From a virus, in the IMG/VR virus record IMGVR_UViG_3300027762_000003, positions 16,028 through 80,027 of that record: a stretch of DNA of 64,000 nucleotides; one strand, 5' to 3'. This document shows positions 13,837-43,113 of the stretch, in pieces. The translations under genes and the position numbers were made by a program. Numbering within the stretch: position 1 is the first letter of the stretch; each line of letters begins with the position of its first letter. The notes beneath the pieces were generated by a model, which was not told the DNA's origin, did no database searches, and saw nothing but the letters and a program-made list of their open reading frames with translations.

Positions 13837-14490
13837 TTACTGAGCAAAAACTTCGTCTAAGATTTCAATCAGATACTGGTTGATTTTCCCATACTTGGAG
13901 TCATGTGAATCGTGGATTGGGATACCCCGACTACGAGAAAGTGCGGCCGCTTTTCTTCCCAGTAGGTTAGCTTCTTTAGATGTGATTTGAATCCCCAAGA
14001 TATTGGCATATCCCAAAATCGTGTAGTAGTGTCCATCGGGGTGAGAGATTCGGTCAAGCTCCGCATTGTGACGGGTGACGGTTTCCTCAACTTGAGCTAG
14101 TCGGCGTTCCTGCTCTCGATATGCTAGAGCCATCTCAACGAGCGCGTCACCGGTGGTTTTCTGGATGGCGTAAGAGCCGGTTTTACGAATAGATGGCAAG
14201 ACTTCAGATGTCACCCACTTACGAAAAGGTTTTGCTTCAGGCTTACGTGAAGACAGCACCAGCGCATACATGCCGGACTCTGAAACTACTGCTGTGCTTG
14301 GGTTTCCCCGATTACCCTCATTTAGAATGATAGTATTCTTTTCTTCTTCATCAAGCCGGGTTAATGCCTGACTCGGATTGCTGATTTCCAAAACTTCGCA
14401 CAAGTCCTTAGCAACAAACCAAGGCTCTCCATCTTGAGTGATGATGCGAACATCTTGACCTTTGAAGTCGAAAACTGATAACTTATTCAT
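13837..14490 (-). CDS. BRO-N domain phage antirepressor
   Basis: 217 residues. Residues 1-110 form a Bro-N domain: MNKLSVFDFKGQDVRIITQD, GEPWFVAKDLCEVLEISNPS, then VVSESGMYALVLSSRKPEAK and FRKWVTSEVLPSIRKTGSY. Residues ~115-140 are a coiled linker. The C-terminal ~75 residues are like those that follow Bro-N in antirepressors (TSKEANLLGRKAAAL). Such proteins bind DNA or a repressor and shift phage gene control. It is preceded by the conserved structured leader. Confidence 0.88.
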   Translation of the reverse strand: MNKLSVFDFKGQDVRIITQDGEPWFVAKDLCEVLEISNPSQALTRLDEEEKNTIILNEGNRGNPSTAVVSESGMYALVLSSRKPEAKPFRKWVTSEVLPSIRKTGSYAIQKTTGDALVEMALAYREQERRLAQVEETVTRHNAELDRISHPDGHYYTILGYANILGIQITSKEANLLGRKAAALSRSRGIPIHDSHDSKYGKINQYLIEILDEVFAQ

Positions 14491-14593: not shown

Positions 14594-15190
14594 CTAAGCC
14601 GTGAGAAGGTCTTTTATTTTCCGTTTCTTGCGTACTTTTTTGATGTTCTCCTTGATGATTTTCTGGAGGCTCGGATCGCACCCAACCTTGGCAATAAGTT
14701 CAGACGAATTAACATCCCGATCGCTCTCATGTCCACAACAAGCGCAATGGTAGACGGGTTTGTTGATATCCATTTCTGGATCATAGGACAGGCACTGAGA
14801 GCAGATCCGAGATAAAGGTAAATCCGACGCAGGTTTTAATCGCGTCATCTTTTTGCCAAACTCTTGAGTTTTCTTGTCGATTAAGTCGATTTGCTGACCG
14901 ATCGCCGCGTCCAAATTACTCTTATTTTGACCCGCTAAAGCCGCTCCCGTCATCCTTGGCTTTGGCTTTGACTTTCCCTACCTTCTTCTGCAAGCCATCC
15001 TCAACTGCGATACCGGATGAATAGGTGGTCAGGTAAGAAGCGATGCGGTACTGGTGCGATCGCCGTCTGCGTTTCGTCTTCTCATGGATGCGTCTTATCC
15101 TCTGCTTACACTCCTTTACTCCTTGGGAATCACCGCAATGTTTCCACCGTAGGCGTTGAATAGTCCTGGGATAAGGGCTTCGAGGATTTT
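14594..15190 (-). pseudogene. tnpB: Broken TnpB (IS200/IS605-family) remnant
   Basis: Two overlapping minus-strand frames together spell the C-terminal half of TnpB. The upstream one (about 15190-14935) has KQRIRRIHEKTKRRRRSHQY and IAVEDGL with the RuvC-II Glu. A frame change at about 14940 leads into SRICSQCLSYDP, HCACCGHESDRDVNSS with the zinc-finger cysteines and the RuvC-III Asp. The N-terminal half with RuvC-I is absent. No TnpA or element ends are seen. It abuts the CRISPR array, so it is either a dead insertion or the remnant of a locus that was once array-associated. Confidence 0.75.
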
Positions 15191-15196
15191 AAGAGG

Positions 15197-15521
15197 ATTG
15201 AGCAGGATCTAATACTCTCTTAGGGATTGAAACCGAACACCAAATCGCATTAATCACTGCCGAAATTCAGGATTCAATGGATCTAATACTCTCTTAGGGA
15301 TTGAAACGTAATCCTGATCAACCCAAGCTAAGGCATTAGCCAGATTCAATGGATCTAATACTCTCTTAGGGATTGAAACAAGCTTGTGGGTAGCTCGCAG
15401 ATCCCCATCAAGATGATTCAATGGATCTAATACTCTCTTAGGGATTGAAACTGTTGCGTGCTAAATTAGAATCATCAATTGAGAGATTCAATAGATCTAA
15501 TACTCTCTTAGAGATTGAAAC
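15197..15521 (+). CRISPR. CRISPR array, five repeats and four spacers
   Basis: Repeats of 37 bases, each ending TAGGGATTGAAAC in plus reading, lie at 15197-15233 (5' part diverged), 15271-15307, 15343-15379, 15415-15451 and 15485-15521. Spacers are 37, 35, 35 and 33 bases. The last repeat has two G-to-A changes, which suggests transcription left to right with the oldest end at right. The ATTGAAAC end is that of many cyanobacterial type I and III arrays. No cas1, cas2 or cas6 is in the window; the type IV-like genes are 17 kb away. Confidence 0.93.
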
Positions 15522-15535
15522 GATTAAATCAACAA

Positions 15536-15571
15536 AAAAAAGCGATCGCCCCCAAAGACGACCGCTTTTTT
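15536..15571 (+). terminator. Terminator behind the CRISPR array
   Basis: AAAAAAGCG, 18-base loop, CGCTTTTTT. Could stop array transcripts and, on minus, transcripts from the gene at 15588. Confidence 0.55.
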
Positions 15572-17184: not shown

Positions 17185-18260
17185 TAATCCCTAATCTGAA
17201 CCGGCATAATCAACACAAGACGATCACCGTCCTTCACGACCGCCGGGGTATTCGGTTGATTGACGTGGAGAGTAAACTCACCATCAGGAAGGGCGGACAC
17301 AAGGTAGGGGTGATGGATAGCGATTCTGAACGGCTCATCAATAATGGATGCAACGACTTCCTCGCTCGCAGATCCGGTATCCCCGCTACATGAGAATGAC
17401 TCAACTTTTGCGAGAACGCCTTCCCCAAATTGGAGCGCGACATTCCTGGTATCACCACAAGTGATTGCTACCCGATCTAGAGCCGCTTTCAACTCACTCC
17501 CATTCATGGTGATTTCATGCTTGAATTCAGCCGGTATAAGCCTAAGTGCATCAGGATACTGCCCAGAAGGGATGCGTGCTGCAATTCGGGTATCTCCAGT
17601 GATAAATAAAATCTGAGAATCATCAAACTTGAATTCGATATTCCCATCAGCCGCCACCTTGAGAATGGCAACCGCCGATCCGGGAATAGTAACCATGAAA
17701 TCATCAGACTTCAATTCTCCAGATGAGTAGCCCAAGCGCTTTCCGTCTGTGGCGATCGCGTGGAGAATATTGTCGGCAATCGAAACATTTACCCCGGTCA
17801 AAACCTGCTTCGTTTCATCTTTGCTGGCATAGCGCGAAGCGAACCGAAGATGTTCTATGACTGACTCAGGGAGCGTGTAGGCACGGTCGCTTTCGATTTC
17901 GGGGAATTCCGGAAAATCGTCAGCAGCGATCGCCTTGTATTGAAACTTACCTTTACTCCACTTAATCAAGACATTGAACTCATCATCAATGTCTAGGCTG
18001 ATTTCCTGATTGCGGTCGATTTTGCTAACGACTTGCTTTAGGAAATCGTAGGGGATACAGAATTCTCCAGAGTCGGAACTTTCCACTGGAATCTTGGTGG
18101 CGATCGCCGTCTTCAGATCTGATCCCGTCACCAGTAAGGAGTCCTCTGTTAATACCATCTTGACGTTAAGTAGCATGGTATTGAATGGTCGGGAATCGAT
18201 TGTGCGCCCAACAATATCAAGAGCGCTTTTTAGGACTGCAACATTACAACTAAATTTCAT
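17181..18260 (-). CDS. dnaN: DNA polymerase III beta subunit, sliding clamp
   Basis: 359 residues, the usual length of a bacterial clamp. It forms the ring that ties the polymerase to DNA. Seen: MKFSCNVAVLKSALDIVGRT, AIAADDFPEFPEIESDRAY (the DFPxxP element between domains 1 and 2), ATDGKRLGYSS, RIAARIPSGQYPDALRLIPA, and the ending LVLIMPVQIRDY that matches the MPMR-type C-terminus. A phage-borne clamp suggests replication by a viral or host replicase specialised for it; no polymerase alpha is in this window. Its start overlaps the gene upstream (TAATG). Confidence 0.93.
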   Translation of the reverse strand: MKFSCNVAVLKSALDIVGRTIDSRPFNTMLLNVKMVLTEDSLLVTGSDLKTAIATKIPVESSDSGEFCIPYDFLKQVVSKIDRNQEISLDIDDEFNVLIKWSKGKFQYKAIAADDFPEFPEIESDRAYTLPESVIEHLRFASRYASKDETKQVLTGVNVSIADNILHAIATDGKRLGYSSGELKSDDFMVTIPGSAVAILKVAADGNIEFKFDDSQILFITGDTRIAARIPSGQYPDALRLIPAEFKHEITMNGSELKAALDRVAITCGDTRNVALQFGEGVLAKVESFSCSGDTGSASEEVVASIIDEPFRIAIHHPYLVSALPDGEFTLHVNQPNTPAVVKDGDRLVLIMPVQIRDY

Positions 18261-31677: not shown

Positions 31678-32691
31678 ATGAAATACATCGTAACGACAAG
31701 ATTTGCAGCGATCGCCCAGGTCAAAAAGTTCGCCATGGTAGATGGAACGGTGCCGGGATGGTTGGCAGCAAGTGGTGATGACTTGCACTATGATCACCAC
31801 CGGCCCGGCGGGGCGGATATCCAGATCTTGGAGATGGACACTGCTCCAATCCTGCGCGATACTGATGGTTATACCATCGTAACGACGCAAATAGACGCGG
31901 ATGCCTGCGTAGCGGCGGCATGGCTTCAGCTTAACGAAGATGAACGTCAGGTTAACCTGCGGAAATTATCGGCGATCGCCTATGACTGCGACCACCTTGC
32001 AGTTCCCAGTTACCTTGCTAACCTTTCGAGCTTCGCAGCGCAAGCAGTCGCTGCCATGAAGACCGGTTCATCAAGCCTAGTTAAGGAACTAGACTTGCCC
32101 GCCGACCGTAAGGGGTGGAGCGTCCTAGACAAGGAGGAGTACGCTTCTAAAGCGTTTGAGGCTGGCACACAAGCTATCCTTGACGCTTGCCGGGGAATTG
32201 CCCCATGGCCAGGAGAAAATGGGGAAGCGTCTGGGTACTGGCAGACCGTTGAGAAAAATGTTCAAATGATTTTGGATGGCGATCGGGTAAGCCTTTACAA
32301 AGGTTGCTTGATCTTTGATGGGAAAGGGCTTCAAGGGAAGTATATCGATCCAAGGTGCTGGTTACGGGCAGCGCAAGCAATGGGTATCCGCGACGATGCA
32401 CCCTTGCAGTCTCGGACGCTTTGCCCTATAACCCTTACTCAAAGGGAGGTTTACATTGAGGATACCTTCCAGGGTTACTCTTACACCATCGGGTGTATAC
32501 CGTTCCATCCCAAGCTCAACGAACTCGACTTCACCAGTGGGACATTTGATGCGCTTACTAAAGCGGAAAAATCAATTAATCCCCATGCTGATGGGTGGGG
32601 AGGACGCAAGACAGTTGGCGGATCTGGGTGGAATACTCCATCTAACCTTTCGCCGCAGGAAATTATTGATATAGCTGTTAAATGTTTTTAG
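31678..32691 (+). CDS. DHH-like phosphoesterase candidate
   Basis: 337 residues; no family named with certainty. Metal-binding type motifs are spaced through the N-terminal third: YDHHRPGGADIQ (~38-49), QIDADACVAAAW (~71-82) and YDCDHLAVP (~100-108). A glycine-rich GGRKTVGGSGW near 312 recalls the DHHA1 substrate motif. The order differs from standard DHH proteins, so it may be another fold that binds metals. If real, it would cut nucleotides or short oligonucleotides. It lies between the HD hydrolase and the CRISPR genes and ends before a strong terminator. Confidence 0.5.
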   Translation: MKYIVTTRFAAIAQVKKFAMVDGTVPGWLAASGDDLHYDHHRPGGADIQILEMDTAPILRDTDGYTIVTTQIDADACVAAAWLQLNEDERQVNLRKLSAIAYDCDHLAVPSYLANLSSFAAQAVAAMKTGSSSLVKELDLPADRKGWSVLDKEEYASKAFEAGTQAILDACRGIAPWPGENGEASGYWQTVEKNVQMILDGDRVSLYKGCLIFDGKGLQGKYIDPRCWLRAAQAMGIRDDAPLQSRTLCPITLTQREVYIEDTFQGYSYTIGCIPFHPKLNELDFTSGTFDALTKAEKSINPHADGWGGRKTVGGSGWNTPSNLSPQEIIDIAVKCF

Positions 32692-32819: not shown

Positions 32820-33410
32820 GTGCAATCCAAGGAAGCAAAAACAAGGATCAAAGTGTACCGATTTTACGGAATGCCAGCAACTACGGAACCCAGGTATGGA
32901 TTAATTTCGGCCATATCTTATGCAGTATTGATCTGCCGAGATCGTCGTCGAAGTCAGCTTCAAGGGACTAGCTTCTGGGAGCGATTTCACAAGTGTGTCT
33001 ATGATGCTGGAATCAGATCGACTAATCTCCTGGAGTATCCAGCACTCCTATGCCAAGGGGTGAGTTCAGACTTAACCCAGGCTATCCTCAAGGGATTGTC
33101 CATCCCTCTATCCGAATGCCCTGATATTCACCTCCCCATCCTCCCCACTGGAGAAGCGGGGGACTTGTTCACCCCCAACCAGTCCCCACTACTGACAGCC
33201 TATTGGGTAGAGACCGTGGCTAAATGCTGCAAACTCCACGGATATACAGAAGAGGATATTCTGGAAATTCCTAGGGATATCACCAAGTCGCAATGGGTAG
33301 CGGTCTCTTGTCGGGTCAGAAGAGAGGAGGATAAGGAGATAGCCAAGGTTAATAGTGATCGAGCCAAGGCACTGGAAGAATTGGAAACAATTGAAGTCGA
33401 GGTAAGTTAA
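32820..33410 (+). CDS. Type IV CRISPR small subunit candidate (Cas11-like)
   Basis: 196 residues if the GTG at 32820 is used; the GTG near 32854 with AAGGATCAAA in front is an alternative. The protein is mostly helical (LLTAYWVETVAKCCKLHGYT; terminal coil KVNSDRAKALEELETIEVEV). Its place directly before csf2, two bases away, is that of the cas11 gene in type IV-B loci, and the size fits, but I see no diagnostic motif. Assigned mainly by position. Confidence 0.5.
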   Translation: MQSKEAKTRIKVYRFYGMPATTEPRYGLISAISYAVLICRDRRRSQLQGTSFWERFHKCVYDAGIRSTNLLEYPALLCQGVSSDLTQAILKGLSIPLSECPDIHLPILPTGEAGDLFTPNQSPLLTAYWVETVAKCCKLHGYTEEDILEIPRDITKSQWVAVSCRVRREEDKEIAKVNSDRAKALEELETIEVEVS

Positions 33411-33412
33411 TA

Positions 33413-34576
33413 ATGGACTACGATATCCACGATCGCCGTCACGTCACTTATCACTGTGTATTCGATCTGCTCTCCCCCTTGAGCCACATTGGGGAAACTC
33501 TCGGTGGTAGCAATATCACCGTACTTAAACAAGCCAAACGCATCGCCATTGATGGGAGGGAGCGATCTCACTTCGTTTTTTCTTCCAACGCATTCAGAAA
33601 CGCCATATTTAGACGCAAGGGATTTGGATTTACCCTTGACGGATTAGGCGTGCAAGTTGACCCCACCACCCATCACACCCTTTTTGCAGGAGGGCGGATC
33701 GACTCCGGGACAGTTGCCAATATCGAGCTTGAAGACCAGTTTCGGCGCTGGCTTCCTGGCTTATCCGTACTCGGAACCGCCAAACCTAAAGACATGGGAG
33801 GGGAGAAAGGCTCCCAGATGATTAGTGGGCGGCTATCCGTAGGTGATGCTGTTCTTGTTTGTTACGAAACTATTAATTACATTTATCAGCAAGCGCCTGG
33901 ATTGATTCCCTATTCAATTTACTCATCCGTCAAGCGGATTATGGAGGCAAGGGAGGCGATCACTGCCGATATTTTTTCGCAACCGTCTCCAGAGGCGAGC
34001 GCTGCTTATGAGAAAGCACTGGAGGAGGAGCTACCCAAAATCAAGCAGCACTTGAAATCCTCTACTGCGTGCATTTCCACTAATCGCTTCTATCGCCGCG
34101 ATAGCGAGAGTGATCCTGATTTAGTGAAATACCTGAAAGCGCCTGAGCAGAAACTCATCGGCACTATCCCCGGACTTACGGAGGAAAAAAAGAAGCCGGT
34201 AGCAGAGAAACAGGAGTCTCGATTCATGGGAGACGACCACTTGATTGCTCCAGGCAACCAACTCTATAGCCGGATGGACATGCACGGCACGACTGTAGAG
34301 GAAGGATTTCTCTGTGCAGCGCTCCTAGAATTCGCCAAGCACCCTTATATAGGTGGTAAATCGAATCGAGGTAATGGGCACGTAAACTTGAGGATAAATT
34401 ACAAGGATCACACCATAGGGGAATCGGGAATATTGCTTTCGGTGGGAACCGACTACCAGCAATTAAGCGATCGCGCTCAAGAGAATTACCGTCGGTATTG
34501 TAATCATTTGGAGGAATTTAAGCACCATCTGGAATCCGCAGATTCTATGCCTAGACATCTTTTAGGAGGGAAATAA
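33413..34576 (+). CDS. csf2: Csf2, type IV Cas7-like backbone protein
   Basis: 387 residues. Cas7-type RAMP features: FDLLSPLSHIGETLGGSNIT near the start, a Ser/Asn-rich stretch FSSNAFRNAIFRR, RRWLPGLSVLGT, and GGKSNRGNGHVNL near the end as the glycine-rich loop. In type IV complexes several Csf2 copies form the RNA-binding filament. It sits in a compact row with csf3 and cysH. Family known from plasmids and phages. Recognition rests on these motifs and context; a profile search would settle it. Confidence 0.82.
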   Translation: MDYDIHDRRHVTYHCVFDLLSPLSHIGETLGGSNITVLKQAKRIAIDGRERSHFVFSSNAFRNAIFRRKGFGFTLDGLGVQVDPTTHHTLFAGGRIDSGTVANIELEDQFRRWLPGLSVLGTAKPKDMGGEKGSQMISGRLSVGDAVLVCYETINYIYQQAPGLIPYSIYSSVKRIMEAREAITADIFSQPSPEASAAYEKALEEELPKIKQHLKSSTACISTNRFYRRDSESDPDLVKYLKAPEQKLIGTIPGLTEEKKKPVAEKQESRFMGDDHLIAPGNQLYSRMDMHGTTVEEGFLCAALLEFAKHPYIGGKSNRGNGHVNLRINYKDHTIGESGILLSVGTDYQQLSDRAQENYRRYCNHLEEFKHHLESADSMPRHLLGGK

Positions 34577-34582
34577 ATAGAA

Positions 34583-35269
34583 ATGGAACCCATACAGATT
34601 ACCGCTTGGATGAGTAGCGCGATCGCGCTGCCCGACGATTGGTCGCCCGACTTGGTGGGCATAGTGATCGCTACCATATTTGATAAAGATCCTCGCCCTT
34701 TTCAAGAGGATTTATCCACACTTGAGGGGGTTCCCTTTGCTAAAACCGATTTAGGTTCCCCTCTACTTTGGTATTTTGCCTGCTCGTCCCCTTGCTACGA
34801 GCTACTTAGTGAAGAGGTGACCCGTTTCCGAAAACGCTGGGACGCTGATGACGGTCGGGTTAGCTGGGGTAAGCGCAAGCCCCAATTTAACGCATCGGAG
34901 GGGAGTGAGAAAAATTATGATCTCCCTCTTCCTCTCAGGGGAATGGAGCGGATCGATTGGTTCGCCATTGGAGATATCGGAGGCGCAGAGCGACTGCTCA
35001 AGCAAGTCACCCACCTAGGGAAAAAACGGAAAGGGGTTGTGGCGCGGTGGGTGGTGAAGGCAATCGCTCACGACTGGCATCTGTACCGCAACAACGAGCT
35101 AATGCGTCCTATCCCTATTAGCTGCAAGCGTCCCGAATGTCTTTCATACGGCATTCGGGATTGGGGATGGCGGCCCCCAATCTGGCTACCTAAGAATAAG
35201 GAGCGGTGTGCCATGCCGGTAATCACAGTAATCAAGCCATGGATGAACAATCAAGAGCAAGCTTTTTAG
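34583..35269 (+). CDS. csf3: Csf3, type IV Cas5-like protein
   Basis: 228 residues. Signs of Csf3: N-terminal beta-alpha region ITAWMSSAIALPDDWSPDLV, and near 150 THLGKKRKGVVARWVVKAIA followed by WHLYRNNELMRPIPIS, which matches the KKR...W...LMRPxP block of Csf3. In the complex it caps the RNA 5' end next to Csf2. It starts 6 bases after csf2 and its end overlaps cysH. Confidence 0.8.
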   Translation: MEPIQITAWMSSAIALPDDWSPDLVGIVIATIFDKDPRPFQEDLSTLEGVPFAKTDLGSPLLWYFACSSPCYELLSEEVTRFRKRWDADDGRVSWGKRKPQFNASEGSEKNYDLPLPLRGMERIDWFAIGDIGGAERLLKQVTHLGKKRKGVVARWVVKAIAHDWHLYRNNELMRPIPISCKRPECLSYGIRDWGWRPPIWLPKNKERCAMPVITVIKPWMNNQEQAF

Positions 35270-35931
35270 GATGGACTCAACTCCCTCGATTTAAGAAAAG
35301 AGTGGAGGAAGCCAAGCGAACCATCAATGAGGCACTGGCGATCGCTCCCTCCTATGTTGCGGTTAGTTGGGGAAAAGATAGCACCGTACTACTCCACCTG
35401 TGCCAACAAATCGATCCGAATATCAAGGCTATTTCACTAGGGAATCCGGATCGCTCTTTTTGTGGCTATGAGCAGGTAATTTCGGACTACTGCGATCGCT
35501 TCCCAACCAATCTCGAAACAATCGAAATAGAGGGAGATCACGTTCCCGACAAACTCAAGCAACTGCGACTGTGGGAGCGGTATCCTATGGCGATCGTAGG
35601 AGTACGGAAAGAGGAATCGCAATATCGCTCGATGGCTATTTCTCGTTATGGGCTGATCTACCAATTCACCAATGGCGAAAAGGAGGGAAGTTGGAGGTGC
35701 TTTCCTTTGGGATATTGGGGATGGCAAGATGTCTGGGGTTATATAGTGCAGCACGATTTACCTTATCTGAGTGCCTACGATCGCCAATCTTGGGAAAGGG
35801 GAAGGACGACTGACCATTTGAGTAAAAGCACTAAAAAGCGATGGCAGCGTACCCGATTAGAGGGATTAGCGTCCATCGCTCCTGAATACTATCAGTATTT
35901 GCTCAAGCAATACCCAGAAATGTTCAACTAG
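35239..35931 (+). CDS. cysH: CysH-like PP-loop ATPase of type IV-B locus
   Basis: 230 residues from ATG 35239 inside csf3; a GTG at 35206 is the other choice. PP-loop SWGKDSTVLLHL near the N-terminus, LGNPDRSFCGYEQVI, and IVGVRKEESQYR typical of the PAPS reductase/sulfotransferase-like family. The catalytic Cys of true PAPS reductases is not seen at the C-terminus. cysH-like genes are a known companion of type IV-B loci; their task is unknown, perhaps nucleic acid modification. Confidence 0.85.
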   Translation: MDEQSRASFLGWTQLPRFKKRVEEAKRTINEALAIAPSYVAVSWGKDSTVLLHLCQQIDPNIKAISLGNPDRSFCGYEQVISDYCDRFPTNLETIEIEGDHVPDKLKQLRLWERYPMAIVGVRKEESQYRSMAISRYGLIYQFTNGEKEGSWRCFPLGYWGWQDVWGYIVQHDLPYLSAYDRQSWERGRTTDHLSKSTKKRWQRTRLEGLASIAPEYYQYLLKQYPEMFN

Positions 35932-36256
35932 CTAGGACAAAATCGACCCCATTAGGGGTTACAATCCCATCCCCGTAGCTGACCGAAATAAACTCCAACC
36001 CTTCATGTCCAATATCGGAAAATCCATGAACTTGCCCGGATTCCTTATGGTAAAGATCCCCCTTCTTTATCTGGTGATTTTTGTCTCCATCAAACCAGAT
36101 CCCACTTCCTCTTAGGATTTGGATACTACAGGGTACTTCGTGACTATGGGGAGGGACTTCACCACCCTCTTCTATCCTCACCAGGAGGACTTGAGTATTG
36201 TAGCGATTGAAGATATTTTGAACGGTTGTTTTCTTGCACTCGTCAATCTCAAACAT
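35924..36256 (-). CDS. Cupin-fold protein inserted in the CRISPR locus
   Basis: 110 residues. Cupin pattern: EGGEVPPHSHEVPCSIQILR (metal His pair with Glu) and DLYHKESGQVHGFSDIG (second His motif). It is read against its neighbours, overlaps the end of cysH by 8 bases, and separates csf1 from the other csf genes. Function unknown; such cupins often bind small ligands or metals. Confidence 0.8.
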   Translation of the reverse strand: MFEIDECKKTTVQNIFNRYNTQVLLVRIEEGGEVPPHSHEVPCSIQILRGSGIWFDGDKNHQIKKGDLYHKESGQVHGFSDIGHEGLEFISVSYGDGIVTPNGVDFVLAS

Positions 36257-36293: not shown

Positions 36294-36968
36294 ATGAATT
36301 ACTGTTATCTGTGCGGGAAAGACGGAGATCGCCCATTAGATCTTCCCAAAACATTCACCGCCCATAACCTAGCCAAAAACCCCACGTCTGACGTACTCTG
36401 TGATCGCTGTTACGGGACGATTGCAGGTGACGAAAAACAGCTCTACTACTGGAACGAGAACAAGAATCCGCCTGCATGGTCAAAGTTATGGGGGCGATCG
36501 CTCTCCAGGCTTTACGTGGGAGAAGAACTGAGATCACCCATCATCGAAGGAGAGCGGGAAGGTACGGCGATCGTCCACTCTTTACCCACTCGTGTAGAAA
36601 TCCGGCAATGGCTCATCAATCCACCTGAGCCACCATTTACAATCGCCATCTCGGTTTCAGGGCAAAAGCATATTTTACCTTTTGCCCAAGAAGCGCATGA
36701 TAGAGAGCGGTTTCCGATTCGATTTGAGTTAACCTCTTTGGAGGTCAACCGCCAAGAATTCACTCGCCTACTCGCTAATTTTGAAATGCTTTACGACATG
36801 GGATTGACTAAAGCGGAAATCCTTAAAGGCAATTACAGTGTGTCACGAGTGGCGGCGATTCCTTATGCGGATTTCCTGAAAAGAGAGGAGGAGATCGCGC
36901 AGTACCGTGGCACTGACCTGCTAGAGTTGGCGGCGTTTGTAGCGCAAAAGGAAGGGGCGATCGAGTAG
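36294..36968 (+). CDS. csf1: Csf1, type IV zinc-finger protein (Cas8-like)
   Basis: 224 residues. The N-terminus CYLCGKDGDRP and VLCDRCYGTIA gives a CxxC...CxxC zinc finger as in Csf1. The middle has PPFTIAISVSGQKHILPFA, and a helical part follows (FEMLYDMGLTKAEILKGNYS). In type IV the protein is the large-subunit relative. It is usually first in the locus; here it is last, after the inverted cupin gene. Near its start TTGACC lies 14 bases before TAACC. Confidence 0.78.
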   Translation: MNYCYLCGKDGDRPLDLPKTFTAHNLAKNPTSDVLCDRCYGTIAGDEKQLYYWNENKNPPAWSKLWGRSLSRLYVGEELRSPIIEGEREGTAIVHSLPTRVEIRQWLINPPEPPFTIAISVSGQKHILPFAQEAHDRERFPIRFELTSLEVNRQEFTRLLANFEMLYDMGLTKAEILKGNYSVSRVAAIPYADFLKREEEIAQYRGTDLLELAAFVAQKEGAIE

Positions 36969-43027: not shown

Positions 43028-43113
43028 TATGTGGTCATGCCCTCAAAGGAGAGGGCGGTGAAAATCAGTATATGTGGTCATGCCCTCAAAGGAGAGGGCG
43101 GTGAAAATCAGTA
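43028..43113 (-). repeat. Exact 43-base tandem duplication in a leader
   Basis: 43028-43070 and 43071-43113 are identical. On minus each copy holds the hairpin GCCCTC-TCCTTT-GAGGGC and an ATGACCACATA that starts a short upstream frame. The second copy overlaps the stop of the gene at 43108. Confidence 0.9.

Follow-up and report, generated by a model that had tools for sequence, protein, structure and literature searches.

A leaderless CRISPR mini-array of host type beside a decayed TnpB gene in a cyanophage with a type IV-B locus

We wanted to know where a short CRISPR array, lying next to a broken tnpB gene in a viral genome, came from and what it might do there. The window, that is the whole stretch of 64,000 nucleotides that was analysed, covers bases 16028-80027 of an 80,027-bp IMG/VR virus record. 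The exact 99-bp overlap between the two ends of this record suggests a closed genome of approximately 79.9 kb. By its sequence the virus is a tailed cyanophage. It encodes a terminase, portal, major head protein, primase, sliding clamp, ribonucleotide reductase, ThyX and dCTP deaminase; the nearest relative of the terminase is that of Synechococcus phage S-CBS4 (40.8%), and 67 HIP1 sites (GCGATCGC) were counted in the window. No close relatives of the virus were found by sliding clamp or terminase in the collections searched. We also observed a perfect 43-bp tandem duplication at window 43028-43113.

The array itself was confirmed as real. It consists of five 37-nt, near-identical repeats and four unique spacers of similar length, at window 15197-15521 on the plus strand, with a regular spacing of 74, 72, 72 and 70 between repeat starts (Table 1). 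Copies 2-4 are identical across all 37 nt, copy 5 departs from them at two sites, and the match of copy 1 is limited to its 3' part. In the shuffled genome the best match to the repeat reached at most 22/37 anywhere. This is the only array in the 80-kb record, and no further repeat, including a solitary one, was found outside it.

Table 1. Features of the array, its surroundings and the type IV-B locus (window positions).
Feature	Position	Strand	Remark
Bro-N antirepressor gene	13837..14490	-	beside tnpB fragment
Decayed TnpB C-terminal ORF (zinc ribbon, RuvC-III side)	14594..14953	-	best PADLOC profile Cas12u2, E 5e-24
Second, out-of-frame TnpB piece (RuvC-II region)	14934..15143	-	N-terminal ~277 profile positions missing
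Repeat 1	15197..15233	+	3' 28 nt (15206-15233) intact, 5' 9 nt replaced; junction on tnpB side
Spacer 1, 37 nt	15234..15270	+	without match
Repeat 2, GATTCAATGGATCTAATACTCTCTTAGGGATTGAAAC	15271..15307	+	
Spacer 2, 35 nt	15308..15342	+	without match
Repeat 3	15343..15379	+	
Spacer 3, 35 nt	15380..15414	+	without match
Repeat 4	15415..15451	+	
Spacer 4, 33 nt	15452..15484	+	without match
Repeat 5 (trailer end)	15485..15521	+	two G-to-A changes; predicted fold retained
Terminator-like hairpin between array and next minus-strand gene	15536..15571	-	1 found, shuffle mean 1.2; weak by itself
Type IV-B Cas11	32820..33410	+	33% to G433 homologue
Type IV Csf2 (Cas7)	33413..34576	+	E 7.8e-33; 43% to cyanophage homologues
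Type IV Csf3 (Cas5)	34583..35269	+	E 7.2e-31
CysH-like protein (PAPS reductase family), IV-B marker	35206..35931	+	
Type IV Csf1 (Cas8-like)	36294..36968	+	E 3.9e-26; 50% to G433

An unbiased blastn search of the array against 72,556 plasmids returned two Pseudanabaena plasmids (NZ_CP112875.1 and NZ_AP017565.1) as the top hits, and the matching arrays on them adjoin type I-D cas operons (cas3'-cas10d-cas7d-cas5d-cas6). The viral repeat and the Pseudanabaena type I-D repeats are of equal length (37) and agree, ungapped, at 30/37 positions with 7 sites differing, so the repeat family does occur beside I-D cas genes, though the repeat is not identical. They have the 3' end ATTGAAAC (the handle) in common, and the viral spacer lengths of 33-37 agree with those of I-D arrays. 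Repeats of the same look reached 29/37 in Microcystis and 28/37 in Phormidesmis, while the six repeats from the paper on cyanophage N-1 gave 22-26/37 and phage V-U2 repeats 11-24/37. The predicted RNA fold shares its two-arm topology with the Pseudanabaena repeat and is kept by repeat 5 despite its two changes; the predicted hairpin is weaker than that of Pseudanabaena (-4.1 vs -7.5 kcal/mol) and not better than shuffles. A looser 26-nt pattern, derived from these same repeats by placing N wherever they differ and therefore indicative of spread and not of significance, was found in 31 genome stretches, mostly of Pseudanabaena and some of Microcystis and Phormidesmis. Judged by the likeness of the repeats alone, the closest family is thus a host (cyanobacterial) one, near type I-D. 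The cyanobacterial character that the sequence-only reading had given to the five-repeat array was borne out, and the dependence on host Cas proteins that it had proposed is plausible, given the degree of repeat identity and the same hairpin topology.

The exact repeat was absent from the viral and genome collections searched, and its exact 21-nt end occurred in no genome searched. Allowing up to 3 mismatches, the 26-nt repeat core was found in none of 386 genomes from the phylum, and a mismatch-tolerant repeat scan of 38 Pseudanabaenales genomes gave none. Since no genome carries the exact end or a core within three mismatches, either the host would be unsampled or the repeat would have drifted. 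Of the two conditions that the sequence-only reading had named for its refutation, spacers without any match and a repeat absent from hosts, the second holds for the exact sequence in the genomes searched, while the repeat family is one of hosts.

Unlike the Pseudanabaena plasmid arrays, which have a cas operon, a leader and 74 and 83 repeats, the viral array stands alone. Six Pseudanabaena arrays share a strongly conserved I-D leader of approximately 150 bp ahead of their first repeat; the sequence preceding the viral array resembled it no more than shuffles did, and no leader was found at the first repeat. The viral array thus appears to be without that promoter region and without the leader that normally serves spacer uptake. 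No convincing plus-strand promoter for the array was found, the promoter-like sites being weak. Because the leader is absent and the first repeat is cut at the tnpB junction, the left edge is likely a recombination breakpoint, and the viral array likely the trailer end of a longer host array. Neither Cas6 nor Cas1 was detected in the record, in agreement with the earlier remark that adaptation and processing genes are lacking, and no type I-D protein was seen among the PADLOC families listed (first 25 of 83), so that I-D cas genes were not found in the same genome. We consider it very probable that the array is a fragment, now leaderless, that was captured from an I-D-like host array.

The spacers gave no indication of targets. 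None of spacers 1-4 had a match beyond chance in phages and plasmids or in 38 Pseudanabaenales genomes, none had a target in the virus itself, and none matched the other phage loci gathered for comparison; a protein-degenerate pattern, used for spacer 2 only, found nothing in IMG/VR. Spacer 1 repeatedly matched Pseudanabaena genomes at 18/19 positions, but the match did not extend and is best seen as a chance hit on one conserved gene. In the reverse direction, the best match of 1053 host spacers to the virus was 17 nt, which is at chance level. The suggestion that the array aims at rival viruses or host genes was therefore not supported by these searches.

The neighbouring tnpB is decayed and frameshifted, as had been noticed from the sequence. 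Its two out-of-frame pieces, at window 14630-14941 and 14934-15143 on the minus strand, correspond to positions 353-440 and 278-347 of the 445-position Cas12u2 profile; positions 1-277, RuvC-I included, are missing, and so no intact TnpB-like effector with RuvC is present. The C-terminal stretch scored 81.5 bits, while most separate C-terminal matches scored below 50 and one other fragment 75.7. By BLAST the fragment is nearest to a TnpB-like protein of Phormidesmis (36%). A firm assignment to V-U2 was ruled out, since the Cas12u2 profile also matches ordinary TnpBs and BLAST favours the Phormidesmis protein. By these matches the fragment is the C-terminal part of a divergent protein, which we call TnpB/V-U2-like because of this breadth of the profile.

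We observed that the IV-B-like locus reported 17 kb from the array is complete: it reads Cas11-Csf2-Csf3-CysH-Csf1, with csf1, cas11, csf2 and csf3 accompanied by cysH and no cas6. A cupin-like gene, read from its translation, separates cysH from csf1 and is encoded on the other strand (window 35924-36256, minus). A 337-aa ORF upstream of Cas11 (window 31678-32691, plus) has 43% identity to a region of G444 that lies close to its IV-B genes (L152:11801-12463) and is possibly IV-B-associated.

A Csf2 search returned 47 IMG/VR loci. Some IV-B phages carry a second TnpB-type effector, V-U2b, of 622 aa (Cas12u2 profile E 9e-58). In the IMG/VR cyanophage contigs L129-L137, L088-L090 and L093 the array lies 280-360 bp 3' of this effector. 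IV-B was present in 8/8 V-U2b contigs longer than 40 kb (nine V-U2b contigs in all), which are closely related and so represent one clade and not eight independent events. The array was 3' of the effector in 8/9 of them, with repeats ending TTGAAAC or CTGAAAC, and an anti-repeat between effector and array was clear in L137 (tracrRNA-like) and visible by eye in L135 and L136. A third kind of TnpB-type locus was found in a more distant IV-B phage, G442 (L146, an 89.7-kb IV-B contig), where L146:17193-19184 holds a 467-aa effector on the minus strand, an anti-repeat at 17661-17693 and a five-repeat type V array (GTCACCTAACACATCACTTGTCATAGCTTTGGTAAC). At L020:3998-9361 (G432), an intact V-U2 effector, its 3' array down to two repeats, is immediately followed on its 3' side by IV-B. 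In L021/L089 (G433) two arrays that adjoin each other but differ in their repeats lie between two convergent TnpB-type effectors, and IV-B follows within 8 kb. The idea that every IV-B cyanophage has a TnpB-type effector was rejected: 10/12 further IV-B contigs have none, and for this reason the proximity of IV-B to TnpB-type effectors with their own arrays in cyanophages is recurrent, not universal. No array like the viral one was found in other IV-B phages among the contigs read whole. A pairing of IV-B, type V and a mini-array on an Actinomyces plasmid appears in the 2025 classification (PMC12669027). A spacer of the V-U2 (V-U2a) array of cyanophage contig L018 matches phage L019 at 32/34 (L019:8265-8298), a sign that arrays in such V-U2 phages may aim at related phages.

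As for function, we infer that the array, if it is transcribed at all, most likely provides guides to the I-D Cas proteins of the host. That it is a virus-borne host-type I-D mini-array whose guides are turned by these proteins against competing elements is our leading explanation, held at a little under even confidence. Recombination would have brought the trailer end of an I-D-like array from a cyanobacterium into a tailed cyanophage, next to a TnpB gene already in decay, and the leader and the 5' end of the first repeat would have been lost on capture. Host Cas6 could cut the transcribed array because its repeats keep the I-D-like hairpin and the handle; a transcript, if made, would yield four crRNAs, these would load the host type I-D complex, and the loaded complex would act on phages or plasmids that compete within that cell, presumably to the benefit of the virus. 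Several findings weigh against this explanation: spacer targets turned up in no collection searched, no genome searched had the repeat exactly or its core within 3 mismatches, a leader and a convincing promoter are missing, and the hairpin is weak. Nearly as likely, and in our view quite possible, is that the array is a dead relic: a piece of host array carried along as a passenger in neutral pseudogene DNA, with neither transcription nor use. The missing leader, the truncated first repeat, the two changes in the last one, the spacers without targets, the dead neighbour gene and the weakness of the promoter-like sites all fit a relic. However, copies 2-4 have stayed perfectly identical and copy 1 has kept all of its 28 core bases, whereas the adjacent tnpB was frameshifted and half lost. 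Phage genomes also usually purge useless DNA.

Other explanations place the partner of the array inside the virus or turn the repeats against the host. IV-B systems normally come without arrays, and it has been proposed that they borrow from other systems (PMC7937560). After processing by host Cas6 the array might supply guides to the virus's own IV-B complex (Csf2/Csf3/Cas11), since a complete locus is present in the same record and the IV-B loci of other cyanophages lie close to arrays whose repeats have similar ends. We regard this as unlikely, as crRNAs were not enriched in the sole IV-B complex studied (PMC7937560), the arrays near IV-B in relatives are those of type V effectors, an anti-repeat accompanying some of them, and here array and IV-B locus are far apart. 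Less probable still is that the array was cognate to the TnpB, the whole being a decayed V-U2-type locus, or a trace of a TnpB-type CRISPR locus as the sequence-only reading had allowed. Array and tnpB are adjacent, the best profile of the fragment is Cas12u2, and V-U2 together with an array is known from phages such as CL131 (PMC6293099); like CL131 and its IMG/VR relatives, our record is from a cyanophage with a TnpB-type protein by an array and a Bro-N antirepressor nearby. But CL131 has an intact effector with the array 3' of it and an unrelated repeat, and the array was 3' of the effector in 10 of 12 IMG/VR contigs with CL131-like V-U2 effectors, whose repeats are unrelated to the viral one, while here the array sits at the truncated 5' side of a dead fragment, which is itself nearest to the Phormidesmis protein. 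No anti-repeat for the viral repeat was found around the array, whereas the control L137 scored 60 against a shuffle maximum of 36; this is supportive only, as two other V-type controls also gave none. Position, repeat type and anti-repeat test led us to reject TnpB as the cognate partner for this array, even though loci of this kind are present close to IV-B in related phages. The adjacency of array and tnpB is best explained by an insertion or recombination event at a neutral site. We give similarly little credence to the repeats being Racr-like RNA decoys that sequester host I-D Cas6/Cascade. Viruses do use mimics of repeats as RNA anti-CRISPRs (PMC10651486; PMC11656645), but these are solitary repeat units, and this array has five repeats with four distinct spacers of normal length and no solitary repeat elsewhere in the record.

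With few spacers and a host-type repeat in a viral genome, the array belongs to the known kind of virus-borne mini-arrays. Its nearest counterpart, that of cyanophage N-1 (Nostoc), also has five 37-nt repeats, four spacers, a host-type repeat family and no cas genes, and no targets were found for its spacers either; it is transcribed in infection, as RT-PCR showed, and has an AT-rich leader-like region (PMC4916379). In contrast, the viral array is leaderless with a truncated first repeat, and its virus additionally carries type IV-B and a TnpB fragment. Fuxivirus (PMC10848311) also combines type IV-B, CysH and a mini-array, but it is an archaeal virus with one spacer inside the IV-B locus, while here the array is distant and its repeat host I-D-like. 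Mini-arrays of archaeal viruses are used between viruses, and the repeats of known viral mini-arrays are usually exact copies of the host's (PMC11656645).

In summary, these results add, after cyanophage N-1, another case of a cyanophage that carries a host-type array without Cas1 or Cas6, and they suggest a route by which viral arrays may be captured, with the leader lost and the first repeat cut. The recurrent occurrence of IV-B near TnpB-type effectors with their own arrays provides phage systems in which the source of IV-B guides is testable. We find it improbable that the guides of cyanophage IV-B come from arrays of the same genome, namely those of V-U2b in one clade and the captured host I-D-like one here; if this were true, it would mean a guided role for IV-B in conflicts between phages.
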